Shown piece after piece: positions 12,629 through 31,589 of a stretch of 34,147 nucleotides of DNA. Every line of letters starts with the position of its first letter. Position 1 is the first letter of the stretch. Origin of the DNA: a virus; the IMG/VR virus record IMGVR_UViG_3300025138_000165, positions 1 to 34,147 of that record; one strand, 5' to 3'. The notes beneath the pieces are model-generated. The model was given only the letters and a program-made list of their open reading frames with translations. It was not told where the DNA came from and did no database searches. Position numbers and translations under genes: made by a program.

Positions 12629-14077
12629 TTAGTCTTCGAAAATGAAGAAGTTGTTTGCACCCATAGTACATACACATCTTTCAGAAAGGAAGTGAACTTC
12701 CATTGCATCTAAAGAAGATGTCATTGCACCACCTGCAGAACCTGTTACCCAAGACTTGTATCTTCGGTCTTCAGTTTCTGACGCTCGGTAACGAACGTGT
12801 AGGAATGGACGCTTAGCGTTCTTACCAAGGATTTGGTCATACACAGACGTGGAACCTGCAGGAACCATCAATCCGTTTACTTGTCCCGAACCTGCACCTG
12901 TAGGTAAACCACCGCGCATTGTTGGGTCGTTCAAGTATTTCCAATCAGACTTGTAGAAGTCATATCCTCTTCTGAATCCTGTGAATCCAAGGTTAAGTGC
13001 CATCTCTTCGTCATTGTCAAACAATCCGTAAGATGTACCACCTGCTCCGTGAGAGTTCTGAGCTGCCAACATATCGTCGATATCGAAACCAAAGTCTCTG
13101 TCAAGGAAGATAACATTCTCCTCGATAGCTCCTTGCTTGTCAAGACGAGAGATAACTGCATCAAAATCCGCGAGGGCAACAGGGTTACCACCGGACCATA
13201 CGTTACCACGATTCTTTACAGAGTAGAAAATACCCTCAGAACCTTTGTAACCTTCAACAGATGCGTTGTTTCCGGGAGCACCGGGAACTGCTTCTGCCAC
13301 TGCAGGAACCGCTTCAATCATTGAAGTTTCCAAGTAGTCATCGAAACGTAAACGAGTTTCGTGCTCAGACTTCAAATACCAAAGGTATCCTGTAGCACCA
13401 TTCTCAGTTGTTACTTCAACCCATCCAATCTGCGCCATATCAGAACCCGATACTGCATACTTATCTTTTAAGATAATTGGAGAGTTTTCAAAGAAGATAT
13501 CGTCAGCCTCTAAAGAACCAACCATTCCTTCTGTTCCTTTCTTGAATTCAGAACCGTAAATGAATACAGTAAAGTCAGCAGCCGCCAAACCTGTACCTGC
13601 AATAACTTGACCTGCTCCTTCGTAAAAAGCCGCTTGAAAACGATTGTTTGCTACAGTAACATCTGTAACAACCGCTTTGTTGCTTCCACCACCGTTGTTA
13701 GCGACAATCATAATTGTTTGTCCAACGCGAAGAGCAATACCATTTGTTCCTGTAAAGGCGGGAACACCTGTGTCATTCACTTGGAATGTTGCACTGTTGT
13801 CTCCTGCTCCACCTGCAGCTACACCAACGTTAGTGTACTTTGTGTGAAGTCTTCCTTGTTCTGCCCATTTCACTAAGTCAGAGTTGGAAGGCATCTCTGC
13901 TCCAACTAATCGTAGGAATGAACTAATTGTACGATTTCCATATCGTTCAAATTCTTTCTCGTAAGTATCCGGAAGATACTGATTCAAGAAATCAAAATTG
14001 GTTATGTAGTTTGTAGCTGTCGGGACCTGTTGTGCCGATGGCTGCAAATCAAAACCGGGAGTTGCACTAACTGCCAT
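12629..14077 (-). CDS. Major capsid protein (HK97-fold type, crAss-like), 482 aa
   Basis: The call is by position and motifs: it follows portal and scaffold-like genes and ends at a strong terminator. The N-terminal segment has LNQYLPDTYEKEFERYGNRT followed by ISSFLRLVGAEMP and LVKWAEQGRLHTKY, which I associate with crAss-like and flavobacterial phage major capsid proteins. The length matches those proteins (about 480-500 aa). The middle has a beta-rich insertion around residues 80-165. A capsid-type central region (FKKGTEGMVGSLEADDIFFE) and a final strand (HFLSERCVCTMGANNFFIFE) follow. It forms the icosahedral shell. No separate protease gene is seen nearby. Confidence 0.85.
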   Translation of the reverse strand: MAVSATPGFDLQPSAQQVPTATNYITNFDFLNQYLPDTYEKEFERYGNRTISSFLRLVGAEMPSNSDLVKWAEQGRLHTKYTNVGVAAGGAGDNSATFQVNDTGVPAFTGTNGIALRVGQTIMIVANNGGGSNKAVVTDVTVANNRFQAAFYEGAGQVIAGTGLAAADFTVFIYGSEFKKGTEGMVGSLEADDIFFENSPIILKDKYAVSGSDMAQIGWVEVTTENGATGYLWYLKSEHETRLRFDDYLETSMIEAVPAVAEAVPGAPGNNASVEGYKGSEGIFYSVKNRGNVWSGGNPVALADFDAVISRLDKQGAIEENVIFLDRDFGFDIDDMLAAQNSHGAGGTSYGLFDNDEEMALNLGFTGFRRGYDFYKSDWKYLNDPTMRGGLPTGAGSGQVNGLMVPAGSTSVYDQILGKNAKRPFLHVRYRASETEDRRYKSWVTGSAGGAMTSSLDAMEVHFLSERCVCTMGANNFFIFED

Positions 14078-14123
14078 TTTTTCTTTGTGCCTCTTACTTT
14101 ACTCAGAGGACTTTGTTTGTTGT

Positions 14124-15257
14124 TTATAATCTTTTTATTTTTCTAATCTTCAGACCACGACCACTGTCGGGATTTAAAGACTTAACCTGCACTCCTCCCT
14201 TGGTGCTAACTTCGGGTGCTCTACGTTCAGACATATTAATATTTTTCATCTTCTTCGTAACATCCTCAGTTCCTGCAGCTAAGCCTTGTTCATAAAAGAA
14301 CTTGGCATACCTTTCGGGATTTGATGCTATAGCTAAAGCTTTATGAAAACCTGTAGCGTCGCTAATCAAACCATTCTCATCAACAAACTTCTTCATAAAG
14401 TTATTTGTATCTAAGTTTCGTTTTTTTAGCTCTTCTACATTTGTGGGTGTATAAGTTAAAACTTGGTCTTCTCCTATTTTGAAATCAAAACCTTTGAAAT
14501 CTGAGAATACCTCGTCTGTCTTTTCCACGAACCAATTACGTCTCCGCTTTTGTTCTTCTTCAAAGCTCTTCGCTTCTTGTAAATATTGGTTATATGCCTC
14601 GCGTTCTTCTTTTTCACTTTCAGAGAGGTCAGCCGTACTTGACTCAAGGGGCTGCTTATACATCTCTTTCTGCTCATTGAAAAACTTCTTGGCTCTTCCA
14701 ATCGCTTTTTTCTTTGCTAACTTTATTTTCTTAATATCCGTTTCGTCGTCAACATCTTCGTCATACTTGTAGTCATCCAACAAAACATCTACATCATCAG
14801 AATCTAAACCTTCCTCCGTAGAGAGAAGGTAGTTCTTTAGCAAAGTGTTTTCGTTCATAGAATCGAAGTCTTGGTTTAATTTAACATAGTCTTCAATTCC
14901 ACGTCCTGTTTTTTTCTTGTACTCAAAATAAGCAGCAATATCTTCGGGTAGCTCTTCGTTTGATTCTTTCTCCTCAAACAACTGACCCACAGAATCTATC
15001 TGCTTATCGTACCTATTCTTAATATATAAAAGAACGTCTTCCTCTTTTAGCTCTGAGGATTGAGTTTGTGTTTCGCCTTGCGGCTGTATTGTTTCTTGCT
15101 CTTGCGGGGCGGAGGCACTCTCAGTGCTTGTTTCCACTCTTTCCAAGTTAGTTTCATTTCCTTCATTAGCCGCCTCTGCTTTTGCTAATAATTCTTCTTC
15201 TACTTCCGCACGAGACTTTTGCTCTGTACCGGAAACTTCTTTTACTTTAAATTCCAT
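14124..15257 (-). CDS. Scaffold-like head assembly protein, 377 aa
   Basis: A very acidic, low-complexity protein: residues 1-75 are Glu/Thr/Ser/Gln-rich and a central block is Asp/Glu-rich (LDSDDVDVLLDDYKYDEDVD), followed by a charged coiled coil and a basic C-terminus (SGRGLKIRKIKRL). An acidic helical body with a basic C-terminal tail, encoded between portal and capsid, is the usual pattern for phage scaffolding proteins, whose basic end contacts the coat. It is preceded by a TAACTTTG box 15 nt upstream of the ATG. Sequence conservation in scaffolds is low, so the call rests on composition and position. Confidence 0.75.
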   Translation of the reverse strand: MEFKVKEVSGTEQKSRAEVEEELLAKAEAANEGNETNLERVETSTESASAPQEQETIQPQGETQTQSSELKEEDVLLYIKNRYDKQIDSVGQLFEEKESNEELPEDIAAYFEYKKKTGRGIEDYVKLNQDFDSMNENTLLKNYLLSTEEGLDSDDVDVLLDDYKYDEDVDDETDIKKIKLAKKKAIGRAKKFFNEQKEMYKQPLESSTADLSESEKEEREAYNQYLQEAKSFEEEQKRRRNWFVEKTDEVFSDFKGFDFKIGEDQVLTYTPTNVEELKKRNLDTNNFMKKFVDENGLISDATGFHKALAIASNPERYAKFFYEQGLAAGTEDVTKKMKNINMSERRAPEVSTKGGVQVKSLNPDSGRGLKIRKIKRL

Positions 15258-20020: not shown

Positions 20021-20246
20021 TCTTACTAAGCTCTAACGCTTCTTTCTCCGTTTCTATTCTGTTTAGAATTTCAAAAGCATCAAAGATAGCAAGCTTCTTT
20101 GTAGCCGCTGCGTTCTTTAATCTGTCCGCTGCAAGTTCGTCTTCGGGGTCGTGTCTGATGATTTCTTCTTTAGCAACCTTTATGAGCTGTTGAACAGCTA
20201 TACTCCCTGCCTTAATAATGTTTTCTTTTAGTTCTGTAGATGTCAT
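19965..20246 (-). CDS. Putative terminase small subunit-like protein, 93 aa
   Basis: A small helical protein with LAADRLKNAAATKKLAIFDA followed by FEILNRIE. It ends in a basic, Gly-rich tail (SKQGFAERRAG). It lies immediately upstream of TerL and overlaps it by 56 nt, while its ATG overlaps the stop of the GroES-like gene as ATGA. Position, size and helical character fit a small terminase (DNA recognition) subunit. No helix-turn-helix can be asserted by eye, and a small conserved accessory protein is an alternative. The gene itself is well supported by the coupled overlaps on both sides. Confidence 0.65.
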   Translation of the reverse strand: MTSTELKENIIKAGSIAVQQLIKVAKEEIIRHDPEDELAADRLKNAAATKKLAIFDAFEILNRIETEKEALELSKSGKTNTDSKQGFAERRAG

Positions 20247-20806
20247 ACGAGCATTGTTATTTGATGGTCATACATTCTGTATAGCTTTTCACCTTCTACA
20301 GTAAACTCATATTCACTATCGGGCTTGAAGCTAATCTTGTCTCCTACATTTACTCCCTTACTTAAAAGGTATTCATTGGGGTATTTCATTTCTCCCACCA
20401 ATGGTTCCTCGCTAAATGGTTTAAAAATATAAGACTCTTCTGCCGGTACGGGTTTAACAAAACAATACTTATCGTATGAATTCCAACCCGTTTCATTCTT
20501 GTACAAATAAAATTGGTCGGGGTCCACAAGAAACATATTGTCCTTTAAAAAACTCTTTCCACTCTGCCTTCTACCTTTCATATCATTGTAGAACTTAAAT
20601 ACATTGTGGTGAACCAAAAGCGTATCTCCTTTTTTTATTTCTCCATTGTAGTAGAGCGGTGTTGCTAATACTTCAGCATACCTATTGGAAAATTTATGGT
20701 CCTCCTCTGATGTGCTTATTATTAAATCAACACCCCCTATATCCTTAGTGTTGTCGTAACGCTTTCCTTTTAATGGTGTGACTATAAATTGAGTTGGTGA
20801 TTTCAA
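20243..20806 (-). CDS. GroES-fold (Cpn10-like) protein in the packaging module, 187 aa
   Basis: The chain opens FIVTPLKGKRYDN and then has a loop with a hydrophobic run (GGVDLIISTSEED, about 24-36), where GroES carries its mobile-loop GG-I-V-L. Next comes RYAEVLATPLYYNGEIKKGD, like the GroES segment that ends in V-GD. After an insertion, residues 137-186 (GVNVGDKISFKPDSEYEFTV onward to ITML) resemble the final strands of a Cpn10 barrel. It is about twice the length of GroES. The start is TTG, supported by a TTGA overlap with the upstream gene and an ATGA overlap downstream. A role as an assembly co-chaperone (T4 gp31-like) is inferred. Confidence 0.6.
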   Translation of the reverse strand: MKSPTQFIVTPLKGKRYDNTKDIGGVDLIISTSEEDHKFSNRYAEVLATPLYYNGEIKKGDTLLVHHNVFKFYNDMKGRRQSGKSFLKDNMFLVDPDQFYLYKNETGWNSYDKYCFVKPVPAEESYIFKPFSEEPLVGEMKYPNEYLLSKGVNVGDKISFKPDSEYEFTVEGEKLYRMYDHQITMLV

Positions 20807-28796: not shown

Positions 28797-29234
28797 ATGC
28801 CTATTGACGATTATCTTAAGTATTGGAAGGTTGTACGATACTTTGTAAAAGCGAAATACAACATAACTCAAGCTGAATTAGATATGCTACTGTTTCTAAG
28901 AACGGAAAAATACTTTTCCAAAAATAGATTCGATGACTTTGATGAGCTACTCAGTTGGAATGTTAATAGGTTTGACAAACTAAAACGTGACGGTTGGATT
29001 GAAGTCTTTCGCAAAAGGAAGGGGAACAACAAGGCTCTATACCAACTGTCGTACAAAGCGCAACGTATGCTAACATCTATATATGAAAAGTTGAAGGGAG
29101 AGTCTATGCCAACATCTCCATCTAAGAACTCTATGTTTCAGAAGAATGTCTCATACTCCGACAAGGTTCATCGCAATATGATAAAGGAGATGAACGCATT
29201 TATAAAACAACAACGACATCGCGCTCTTGAATGA
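28797..29234 (+). CDS. Winged-helix-like putative transcription regulator, 145 aa
   Basis: It is the only plus-strand gene inside the late block. The sequence (MPIDDYLKYWKVVRYFVKAK, then ITQAELDMLLFLRTEKYFSK) has the helix pattern of MarR-type winged helices. The recognition-helix region is about FDELLSWNVNRFDKLKRDGW, and the wing is IEVFRKRKGNNKALYQLS. A conserved-looking tail (SYSDKVHRNMIKEMNAFIKQ) follows. I recall similar proteins in marine phages. Its 3' end overlaps that of groES by 35 nt tail to tail, and its 5' end faces the basic-protein block. It could switch or repress late transcription. Fold call is moderate, function inferred. Confidence 0.75.
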   Translation: MPIDDYLKYWKVVRYFVKAKYNITQAELDMLLFLRTEKYFSKNRFDDFDELLSWNVNRFDKLKRDGWIEVFRKRKGNNKALYQLSYKAQRMLTSIYEKLKGESMPTSPSKNSMFQKNVSYSDKVHRNMIKEMNAFIKQQRHRALE

Positions 29235-29457
29235 TGGTGTACTGCTCACCCTCAATCATCATTGTGTAGCACTGACGCTTGTCAAAGTAAATTTCATCAC
29301 CCTCGTTGATAATAGATACATCTGTGCCCGGCTTAACAACTGTAGCTTTATGGTATCTGAAGGCACTTGCATCCTGTGCGGATAATAATAGTCCGGAGTC
29401 CGTCTTTACTTCTTCCTCTATCAAGCTTACGATTATATGTTTTCCGATTGGTTTCAT
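29200..29457 (-). CDS. groES: Phage co-chaperonin GroES (Cpn10), 85 aa
   Basis: The N-terminus MKPIGKHIIVSLIEEEVKTD aligns with the first GroES strand. The mobile-loop tripeptide region is SGLLLSAQD (21-29), where GroES has GGIVL. The remainder (ATVVKPGTDVSIINEGDEIY, then EGEQYTIIQERDVV) follows the GroES barrel with its G-D turn and closing strands. It is about ten residues shorter than bacterial GroES and lacks the classic roof-hairpin sequence. It caps the GroEL ring during substrate folding. It is the last gene of the groEL unit, and its ATG overlaps the stop of the 65-aa gene as ATGA. It overlaps the plus-strand regulator gene by 35 nt. Confidence 0.85.
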   Translation of the reverse strand: MKPIGKHIIVSLIEEEVKTDSGLLLSAQDASAFRYHKATVVKPGTDVSIINEGDEIYFDKRQCYTMMIEGEQYTIIQERDVVVVL

Positions 29458-29651
29458 TCAAATGATTTAATTAACATTACTAAAAGTATAACAGCTATAA
29501 CACCGAGGTAAAATAGACTACCCCATATAGCATACCGTAGAATAGTTCTCTTGTTGTACAAACGCTTTTTGTATAGTTCACGTATGCTTTCACCTAAGTC
29601 TGCATCATTTGGATAGGCATCCATAAGCTTCTTGATTATACTCTCTCTCAT
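29454..29651 (-). CDS. Single-pass small membrane protein in the chaperonin cassette, 65 aa
   Basis: A charged N-terminal half (MRESIIKKLMDAYPNDADLG, then ESIRELYKKR) is followed by one hydrophobic segment, about 41-61 (AIWGSLFYLGVIAVILLVML). Topology is likely N-in with the helix at the C-terminus. It lies between the 22-aa peptide and groES, coupled to groES by an ATGA overlap. Its presence in the cassette is unexplained. It might anchor chaperonin substrates at the membrane or be an unrelated early or lysis protein. No family recognised. Confidence 0.68.
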   Translation of the reverse strand: MRESIIKKLMDAYPNDADLGESIRELYKKRLYNKRTILRYAIWGSLFYLGVIAVILLVMLIKSFE

Positions 29652-29653
29652 TT

Positions 29654-29722
29654 CTATTTTTTATTAGCCACTACTACAAGTGCTGCTACAAAAGCTGCTA
29701 TTATTAATACTACTTGTGTCAT
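29654..29722 (-). CDS. Hydrophobic micro-peptide between groEL and the 65-aa gene, 22 aa
   Basis: The ORF reads MTQVVLIIAAFVAALVVVAN plus two Lys: one membrane helix and a basic end. The ATG overlaps the groEL stop as ATGA and the TAG stop lies 2 nt before the next ATG. This exact packing, the same overlap style as at neighbouring genes, makes translation likely. It is too short for standard gene callers. Its role is unknown. Confidence 0.55.
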   Translation of the reverse strand: MTQVVLIIAAFVAALVVVANKK

Positions 29723-31329
29723 TCTTTCTCGTATGAACGTGCCATAGTCACAATGGCATCTGTTGATAATATGGTTACTGCAACACTGACCGCATTCTGT
29801 AGTGCACTACGTGTTACCTTCAGCGGGTCAATGACACCCATCTTGTACAGGTCTCCTTTCTCTCCTGTTTTTACATTGTACGCCTTGGTTATTTTATCGC
29901 TACCCTTGATGTCTCCGTACACATCTTCATAATTCTTTCCTGCATTTCTAAGTATCTGACATAGAGGAGAACATAGAGCTTCATCTAATATCGTGAAAGC
30001 TATCTGTTTTGAATCAGAATAGGACTCCTTAATTTGAATCTCAGAAGCAAGGTTATTAAGAGCCACTCCTGCTCCCGGTAGTATTCCTTCTTCCAATGCT
30101 GAGCGTACTGCACACACCGCATCGTCTACTCGGTCATACAATTCCTTTTGCTCAAGGTCTGTGTTACCACCAACATAGATAACACCGATGCCACCCGTTA
30201 GTGAAGCTATACGCGAAAGGATAAACTCCCTGTCAGCTTTTTTATTAGTCAGACTATGCGCGTGAGTTAATTCCTCAACACGCTTCTTTATGATGTCATC
30301 ACTCTCATCACTCTCATCCTTGAGGATGACCGTCGAGTCCCTCCCAACTATCACCTTGGAAGCGTGACCCAAATCGCTAAATTCAATTAGACTCAAGTCA
30401 TCCCCTGTCTTCTCGGAGAAGTATGTTGCACCAACACTGAGCGCAATGTCCTGCATCAGCTCGTGCTGCTTGTACCCGAAGTTGGGTGGCTGTATAGCAC
30501 ACACCTTCAAGTTGTTCTTCATTACGTTAGCCGCTAAAGTATTTACTACCTGTCCGGAGACCGGCGCAATAATCAATAGCTTCTTACCGTCCTGTATGAT
30601 TGGTTTCAACACCTTCTCTATCTGTAGGATGTTACTGACCTCTGCATCTGATACCATAATGTAAGTGTCGTCAAGGACACTCTCATCTTTCTTTTGGTCA
30701 TTGACAAACAGGTCGGTCATATACCCCCTGTCTATCTTTATACCATTGGTAGTCTCGTAGTAAGTGTCTGATGTTTGTGAACGCTCAACTGTAACGATGC
30801 CGTCCTTGCCAACTTTTTCGTATACGTCTGCTATGGTATCCCCGATGAGCTTGTCGTTGTTCGCTGAGATAATCGCAACATCCCTAAGCGTTTTCGAGTC
30901 TACCCTCTTTGACATCTTCTTTAATCTCTCTACTATCTCTTTCGTTTCCTCTACAAGCATACGTAAGACCTCCGTCCTGTTACAATCTTTCATACGAGCT
31001 GTACCCGCTTTTACAAGTGCCTCTGTTAACACTATAGCTGTCGTGGTTCCATCACCCGCTGAGGTAGCTGTCTTGTCTGCTGCTTCCTTCATCATACGAA
31101 CCGCAAGGTTCTCGATTGGGTCCATTAGACTAATAGACTTCGCTACTGTTACTCCGTCTTTCGTTACCGTAATCCCGTGAGTGTGGTCCGGTGACTCTAT
31201 GAGCACAGTGTTACCCATAGGTCCTAACGTACTCTTTACTGCTTTAGAAATTTTTGTGATGCCGGAGATGAGCTTGTCTCTCCCCTCTGTGCCGAACTCT
31301 AAGTCCTTTGGCGAATAACCTTGATTCAT
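29719..31329 (-). CDS. groEL: Phage chaperonin GroEL (Cpn60), 536 aa
   Basis: A full-length type I chaperonin. It has LGPMG (35-39), TKDGVTVA (56-63), the ATPase motif AGDGTTTA (91-98), and RVDDAVCAVRSALEEGILPG with the conserved Asp pair near the C-terminal half. The apical region (RGYMTDLFVN, then APVSGQVVNTLAANVM) is intact, but the Tyr of the usual SPYF substrate site is Leu. The C-terminus ends ARSYEKE, without the Gly-Gly-Met tail. The start used is MNQGYSPKDLEF, because a reading eight codons longer would begin inside the -7 promoter box. It heads a cassette ending in groES, the reverse of the usual bacterial groES-groEL order. Confidence 0.95.
   Translation of the reverse strand: MNQGYSPKDLEFGTEGRDKLISGITKISKAVKSTLGPMGNTVLIESPDHTHGITVTKDGVTVAKSISLMDPIENLAVRMMKEAADKTATSAGDGTTTAIVLTEALVKAGTARMKDCNRTEVLRMLVEETKEIVERLKKMSKRVDSKTLRDVAIISANNDKLIGDTIADVYEKVGKDGIVTVERSQTSDTYYETTNGIKIDRGYMTDLFVNDQKKDESVLDDTYIMVSDAEVSNILQIEKVLKPIIQDGKKLLIIAPVSGQVVNTLAANVMKNNLKVCAIQPPNFGYKQHELMQDIALSVGATYFSEKTGDDLSLIEFSDLGHASKVIVGRDSTVILKDESDESDDIIKKRVEELTHAHSLTNKKADREFILSRIASLTGGIGVIYVGGNTDLEQKELYDRVDDAVCAVRSALEEGILPGAGVALNNLASEIQIKESYSDSKQIAFTILDEALCSPLCQILRNAGKNYEDVYGDIKGSDKITKAYNVKTGEKGDLYKMGVIDPLKVTRSALQNAVSVAVTILSTDAIVTMARSYEKE
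30665..30680 (-). repeat. Copy 4 (divergent) of the GTGTC/GACAC hairpin
   Basis: The sense strand reads GTGTCCTTGACGACAC: a 5-bp stem inside groEL (coding near SVLDDTY). It is the weakest copy and could be chance. Confidence 0.35.
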
Positions 31330-31350: not shown

Positions 31351-31380
31351 CAAAGATATAAATAATAACTACATACACAA
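31351..31380 (-). promoter_or_regulatory. groEL promoter (Bacteroidota type)
   Basis: A -7 box TATCTTTG (31351-31358) and a -33 TTG (31378-31380) are separated by 19 nt, close to the known Bacteroidota sigma-A promoter arrangement. The -7 box ends 21 nt before the groEL ATG. This is the best complete promoter in the window and fixes the groEL start. Confidence 0.62.
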
Positions 31381-31401
31381 TGTAGACTTTTTTGCTCCCT
31401 A

Positions 31402-31432
31402 CTCTCTCTCTCTCTCTTTATTATTATTATTA
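31402..31432. repeat. Simple repeat: (CT)8 followed by (TTA)5
   Basis: Sixteen bases of alternating CT run directly into five TTA units. It lies in the 286-nt intergenic region upstream of groEL. The tracts could vary in length by slippage and alter promoter strength. Confidence 0.85.
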
Positions 31433-31454
31433 AACGCTTGTCTGTATAGAAAGA

Positions 31455-31558: not shown

Positions 31559-31589
31559 AAAAAAAGAGGACCGTAGGAGAGTCCTCTTT
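31559..31589 (-). terminator. Intrinsic terminator after the 67-aa gene
   Basis: A 9-bp stem AAAGAGGAC/GTCCTCTTT with a 9-nt loop, followed on the minus strand by a T-run. It ends the 67-aa gene unit and isolates groEL from upstream transcription. Confidence 0.85.

Follow-up and report, generated by a model that had tools for sequence, protein, structure and literature searches.

Why does a bacteriophage bring its own chaperonin, and how has that chaperonin changed? The question is raised by IMG/VR virus record IMGVR_UViG_3300025138_000165, whose 34,147 bases were analyzed as one stretch (the window) and in which a groEL gene, two small genes for membrane proteins (m22 and m65), and a groES gene all lie on the minus strand. 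The window also encodes a terminase, a portal, virion proteins, an endolysin, and a holin, which places the locus in a phage context. With a probability of roughly 0.7, we read it as a phage-owned group I chaperonin system that has become specialized. What is new here is the rebuilt substrate groove and relaxed ring-ring sites of the GroEL, a roofless GroES, a predicted tandem GroES-like protein (dES) encoded beside the terminase, and a candidate promoter serving the chaperonin genes themselves.

The identities of the two chaperonin genes are beyond doubt, as judged by their Pfam and PHROGs matches. groEL (29719-31329, minus strand; 536 aa, ATG at 31329) matches Pfam Cpn60 (PF00118) over its full length (E 1.4e-61, 209 bits, profile positions 1-488 of 490) and PHROG_5725, "chaperonin groEL", over residues 8-531 (E 2.5e-136); residue analysis and trees likewise assign it to the group I chaperonins. 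groES (29200-29457, minus strand) encodes an 85-aa Cpn10 (Pfam Cpn10, E 1.9e-11, 44.3 bits). Along the minus strand the order is groEL, m22, m65, groES, and a preliminary description of this DNA was right in placing groEL first, as it was about the full-length GroEL, the GroES-like gene, and the 22-aa and 65-aa open reading frames (ORFs). Its statement that the genes are coupled by ATGA overlaps holds for groEL/m22 and m65/groES; m22 and m65 are separated by 2 nt.

The locus recurs widely. Among the window and 81 other phage loci (82 in all), groEL is followed by groES on the same strand in 81, the exception (L015) being a record that stops 1.5 kb past groEL. A GroEL relative is encoded in 267 of the 50,697 phage records, and scanning of viral contigs turned up 413 candidate relatives of the window GroEL. 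The preliminary description had called phage GroEL uncommon and a complete pair even rarer; these counts contradict both statements. Nor is the presence of GroEL in this phage group new, because it had been reported in 36 genomes of a phi38:1-like phage group (Nishimura 2017, PMC5332604), and papers citing Marine 2017 relay from it that chaperonins are prevalent in virioplankton. The report of Nilsson et al. (2020) on Baltic Flavobacterium phages leaves chaperonins unmentioned.

Window-type GroELs are 37-41% identical to those of Escherichia coli and Bacteroidota, and trees, a check proposed with the preliminary description, place them in a clade of their own (support 100/100) on a long stem outside the Bacteroidota GroELs. 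The position of this clade relative to the GroELs of phages elemo, phi38:1, and Panino is unsettled, given long branches and a support of 79/25 for the join with Panino. Recent capture of groEL from a host was considered and is ruled out by synteny and trees. Assembly chimerism, in which a host groESL fragment would have been joined to a phage contig and GroEL would nest within one host genus, has a practically negligible probability: no point in its favor was found, the GroEL clade stands apart, and the same locus occurs in the 81 other phage loci, including MW202828, a circular genome of 60.85 kb, and in many contigs of 55-65 kb. In the genome collection that was searched, the best bacterial matches were only four metagenome-assembled genome (MAG) contigs of 3-11 kb, which we read as binned phage DNA. 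As a side observation, phage GroEL contigs L084-L087 were binned into MAGs labeled Chthoniobacterales, Aliivibrio, TMED88, and Bacteroidetes, likely instances of binning contamination in public genomes.

The features that set this GroEL apart begin in its apical domain. All 82 clade members share the ATP-site residues T30-P33, K51, D52, D87, D398, G414, and D495 without variation. The full-length Cpn60 profile and the nucleotide-binding and hydrolysis residues of a group I chaperonin are present, whereas the canonical hydrophobic apical groove (Y203, L234, L259, V263, V264), which family membership does not require, is not. In E. coli, this groove binds both substrate and the GroES mobile loop. 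In the phage clade it carries L234E, V264A, and Y203L/M (82/82 each) together with V263A (81/82), and L259 is mostly replaced by V or I. R231 and A241, on the same helix as L234, have become L and I, so that the helix H face R231-L234-L237-A241 now reads L231-E234-L237-I241; Y199 (79/82), F204, and L237 are retained. By comparison, Y203, L234, V263, and V264 are canonical in 33/33 bacterial GroELs. Within the clade, the groove sites are conserved (entropy 0.32 vs 0.83 for random apical sites), which indicates specialization and not decay. The preliminary description had pointed to the absence of a GGM tail and to Leu in place of the substrate-site Tyr, and both observations are correct: the protein ends in ...TMARSYEKE, and the position of E. 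coli Y203 is L. Its hint of specialization for phage proteins can be extended in one respect, as the groove is rebuilt clade-wide and well beyond the Tyr-to-Leu exchange; that the clients are phage proteins is a supposition. Judged from these substitution patterns, a GroEL specialized relative to its bacterial counterparts is supported.

A further departure concerns the contact between rings. The E. coli ring-ring contact sites 105, 109, 434, 452, 461, 463, 464, and 467 have a mean entropy of 3.05 in the dereplicated clade. Equatorial sites drawn at random give 1.21, and none of 2000 draws reached 3.05, while in bacteria the same ring-ring sites are ordinary (0.90 vs 0.82). Position V464 is most often D or E (32/56 clade sequences), and within-ring and ATP sites stay conserved. 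The same positions are altered in SR1, a single-ring mutant from E. coli, and in ACI, an ancestral chaperonin that is likewise single-ring (PMC12696368). Since the ring-ring sites are unconserved, a single heptameric ring is predicted, and this is most likely the form that the phage GroEL takes.

The GroES is altered as well. In the alignment, 8 of the 9 residues of the E. coli roof hairpin RILENGEVK are missing from 81/81 clade GroES proteins, and those of elemo, phi38:1, Panino, and DAC19 also lack this hairpin. The SGLxLS-like mobile-loop motif is kept in 78/81, reading SGLLLS in the window. An AlphaFold2 (AF2) model of the window protein (predicted local distance difference test, pLDDT, 92.3) adopts the GroES fold, with a VIA Z of 11.0 to 4v4o_P over 83 aligned residues at a root-mean-square deviation (rmsd) of 2.1; the profile, fold, and hydrophobic mobile-loop tripeptide of a Cpn10 are thus present, and the roof beta-hairpin is absent. 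The lid of phage T4, gp31, is likewise a GroES-fold protein without roof loops, a feature thought to help admit the 56-kDa capsid protein (PMC6318259), and the open-topped phage lid described here resembles this solution. Unlike the window GroES, gp31 has a longer mobile loop, of which the GroES alignment gives no sign, and works with the host GroEL, whereas the window phage encodes its own.

The preliminary description identified one GroES and overlooked a second GroES-like gene. This gene, dES (20243-20806, minus strand; 187 aa), lies immediately 5' of the gene for the large terminase. Its whole product is covered by a match to PHROG_13932 (co-chaperonin GroES; E 3.7e-21) and is predicted to be a tandem of two GroES-like domains. 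When its AF2 model (pLDDT 80.7) was compared with 350,542 PDB chains, the top match was 7ekq_R, the tandem co-chaperonin Cpn20 of Chlamydomonas (Foldseek E 7.9e-4; VIA Z 9.6, residues 1-187, 158 aligned, rmsd 4.4, 13% identity), followed by many single GroES chains. At the sequence level, the dES profile reached just E 0.28 against PDB sequences, to GroES in the domain 2 region; hhalign likewise gave weak support to domain 2 (E 8e-4, 25% probability), and domain 2 of the phi38:1 homologue passes the Pfam cut-off. Domain 1 contains an insertion and, within the clade, invariant VHHN and FYND-like segments, of which HHN persists in Elemovirus, Panino, and Callevirus. dES is present in 20/20 near-complete relatives and in those three groups, and always lies 5' of the terminase where the latter is annotated (window, MW202828, elemo, Panino); in phi38:1, its homologue precedes the gene at the terminase position. 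Five contigs carry dES and no groEL, but they are apparently cut before the groEL position, and phages with dES alone are not concluded from them. The distances of GroEL, GroES, and dES correlate (r 0.69-0.75), and dES probably acts in the same pathway as the other two. Its GroES-like character is already on record, the homologues in elemo and Panino being labeled co-chaperonin in GenBank; a search of openly licensed papers for phage tandem GroES proteins gave nothing relevant. Two weak second Cpn10 matches were also noted, at 71079-71186 in a 218-aa ORF of Bacteroides phage DAC19 and at 14073-14255 in a 162-aa ORF near the terminase of crAss-like cr108_1; both ORFs are possibly distant dES-like genes.

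How the chaperonin genes may be expressed is suggested by their flanks. At 31351-31380 on the minus strand, 22-51 nt 5' of the groEL ATG, stands TTG-N19-TATCTTTG (31380-31351 in reading direction), the sole intergenic full match in the window to a promoter motif that we take, from established Bacteroidetes promoter work, to be of Bacteroidota type. Its -7 box, TAnnTTTG, occurs about 23-35 nt 5' of the ATG and was found in the scanned stretch of 79/80 loci vs 10% of random windows, and both boxes occur in 39/80 loci vs 1.4%. An intrinsic terminator-like hairpin (31563-31589, minus strand; 10-bp stem and T run) lies between an upstream 77-aa gene and groEL; three such hairpins were found where 2.3 are expected by chance, and this one has the longest stem. 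At the other end, a convergent 145-aa gene on the plus strand (28797-29234; PHROG_17028, E 7.7e-15) bounds the operon and shares 35 nt with the 3' end of groES. Own promoter, 5' hairpin, and convergent gene together indicate that groEL-groES is probably its own transcription unit, which host RNA polymerase would serve. The preliminary description spoke of the late direction. The structural genes do lie on this strand, but the terminator-like hairpin 5' of groEL and the gene's own promoter leave late expression unproven. A promoter of this type also points to a Bacteroidota host; we read the virus as one that infects aquatic Bacteroidota-type bacteria. Short tandem repeats of GA/CT and TAA/TTA were noticed at about 31395-31440, between hairpin and promoter.

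Between groEL and groES lie m22 (29654-29722, minus strand), encoding the 22-aa micropeptide MTQVVLIIAAFVAALVVVANKK with a single transmembrane segment, and m65 (29454-29651, minus strand), whose 65-aa product has a charged N-terminal part and a C-terminal transmembrane helix. Neither matched PHROGs, and against Pfam m65 gave only a sub-threshold match. A search for the micro-genes beside groEL in relatives, as the preliminary description had proposed, recovered m22 homologues in L004 and L069 (ratio of nonsynonymous to synonymous rates, dN/dS, about 0.07-0.11) and m65 homologues in seven other loci (about 0.06-0.2). Both are recurrent and under purifying selection, which makes them real genes, more than chance ORFs. 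The interval that holds them is variable, ranging from -17 to 1,867 bp and measuring 20 bp or less in 18/81 loci. By eye, its other contents include a 185-aa 2-oxoglutarate-Fe(II) oxygenase-like protein, a 119-aa MazG-like protein, and a 282-aa protein of unknown function (L014, L017-L020, L031, L061, L064, L080), in addition to a recurrent 60-85-aa family and other membrane micropeptides of 21-35 aa. Moreover, m65 and groEL distances show no correspondence (Mantel r -0.03): L051 and L069 have GroELs that are 99% identical and m65 proteins that are 84% identical, while L004 and L069 share 91% in m65 and 74% in GroEL. Given this variability and the independent m65 distances, the micro-genes do not form a constant component of the chaperonin, and the preliminary description's inclusion of them in the cassette does not stand; as a general statement, a core role is ruled out by the variable slot. 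The best reading is that m22 and m65 are exchangeable passengers in a cargo slot, translationally coupled to the operon. Separately, a family of 21-31-aa hydrophobic micropeptides (MxWQEIxxVIIVWEILK-like), by eye unrelated to m22, was seen in the slot of L012, L014, L017-L020, L031, L048, and L082.

The system to which our probability of 0.7 applies would operate as follows. Host RNA polymerase would transcribe groEL-groES as its own unit from the Bacteroidota-type promoter. Driven by ATP, GroEL would provide the chambers in which proteins fold, each most likely a single heptameric ring. The roofless 85-aa GroES would serve as their lid, with its SGLxLS mobile loop bound to the rebuilt apical groove. 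The pair would fold one or a few bulky phage proteins that host GroEL/ES handles poorly; head proteins are plausible clients, namely a 482-aa probable capsid protein encoded at 12629-14077, the 811-aa portal, and the 759-aa terminase. dES would probably belong to the same folding pathway as a second lid-like protein, and the membrane genes would ride along as coupled passengers in the exchangeable slot.

The locus might instead hold an ordinary phage copy of GroEL/ES, a broad-specificity double ring that boosts folding capacity and whose changes are drift. Such a copy would fit the full-length Cpn60, its intact ATPase site, and the Cpn10, as well as the best PDB sequence matches of the GroEL, which are double-ring GroELs headed by an ancestral FCB-group chaperonin. 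We nevertheless consider it unlikely: the groove substitutions, which are fixed throughout the 82 sequences, show conservation within the clade, the ring-ring sites are uniquely relaxed, the roof hairpin is lost throughout, and drift would not fix L234E everywhere. Several points do weigh against the specialized system that we prefer. Work by Fenton in 1994 is said to have found that L234E in E. coli GroEL abolishes binding of both substrate and GroES, so that binding must work differently in the phage protein. The unconserved ring-ring sites could mean a different double-ring interface, and the confinement of m65 to the slot could signal a functional link. The sequence profile of dES domain 1 does not match Cpn10/GroES, its predicted fold alone supporting the assignment. 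The single-ring phage chaperonins OBP and AR9 need no co-chaperonin and are imperfect models, and the literature yielded no experiments on any member of the window GroEL clade.

For individual parts of the specialized system, other roles deserve weight. dES may serve as a lid; alternatively, it may be part of the head or of the packaging apparatus and have taken over the GroES fold. The latter, with no co-chaperonin function at all, is the less probable of the two yet a serious contender: it would explain the fixed position 5' of the terminase in the window, elemo, Panino, and phi38:1, and it accords with the conserved VHHN motif, the domain 1 insertion, and a domain 2 loop that is short and ordered in the model, unlike a mobile loop. 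Arguing for a lid are the Cpn20 and GroES chains as best PDB matches, a GG-hydrophobic loop in domain 1 that is of low confidence in the model and mobile-loop-like, and the phi38:1 homologue, which is annotated as hypothetical and is not among the proteins called structural by similarity to phi18:1. It is improbable that m65 and m22 are functional partners that tether the chaperonin to the inner membrane or bring it membrane clients, a role that would account for their coupled position between the two chaperonin genes. In all 8 known genomes, m65 is indeed found solely between groEL and groES, with overlaps or gaps of a few nucleotides and under purifying selection, and other transmembrane micropeptides fill the same slot in further loci; however, the slot is empty in 18/81 loci and holds unrelated soluble genes in others, and the distances of m65 show no correlation with the distances of groEL and groES, with which a chaperonin partner should coevolve. 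Bolder, and doubtful in our estimation, is a three-part machine unlike any characterized, in which a single-ring GroEL with an acidic groove residue, the roofless GroES, and a packaging-tied Cpn20-like lid would be reserved for terminase, portal, or capsid proteins.

Comparison with known systems places the specialized chaperonin among relatives that share some of its parts. The nearest annotated record, Caudoviricetes sp. ctfjg026 (MW202828.1, 60.85 kb), has the same synteny (GroEL 60%, GroES 65%, dES 66% identical) and differs in an empty slot of 4 bp without micro-genes. In Elemovirus (Flavobacterium phages vB_FspP_elemo, about 60 kb), too, groEL precedes groES, the two overlapping slightly, and a dES-type gene, annotated as another "co-chaperonin GroES", lies directly 5' of the terminase. 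The Elemovirus GroEL is only 37.6% identical to that of the window, the slot holds no gene, groEL lies on the strand opposite the terminase, and the groove residues differ, with L234 kept. Callevirus (Cellulophaga phage phi38:1, 72.5 kb) also encodes a GroEL, a Cpn10 that lacks the roof hairpin, and a homologue of dES, which precedes the gene in the terminase position, whereas its order is Cpn10-hypothetical-GroEL, beside DNA-polymerase genes, and its GroEL is 35.5% identical. More distant are the Cpn60 proteins of EL (gp146), OBP (gp246), and AR9, for which a single-ring state is known or part of the cycle; the EL and AR9 GroELs are 24-27% identical, a Cpn10 search of these two genomes gave no hit, and the OBP/AR9 type works without co-chaperonin, unlike the window clade with its adjacent groES. 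Chloroplast Cpn20, like the predicted dES, has two GroES-like domains head to tail; dES is, by contrast, a phage gene with one mobile-loop-like segment.

The phage chaperonins whose biochemistry has been worked out (EL, OBP, AR9) belong to giant phages in which no GroES is known. A widespread 55-65-kb clade with GroEL, GroES, and a conserved second GroES-like protein thus offers a small, complete system, with a cultured relative (Elemovirus), for testing why phages encode a chaperonin themselves. The natural E234 and the relaxed ring interface provide a test of what a chaperonin can lose and still work. If dES does act as a co-chaperonin, tandem lids would exist outside plastids as well.

The convergent PHROG_17028 gene at the groES end is present in all but one locus, on the opposite strand in 81/81, and carries the label "repressor protein" in MW202828.

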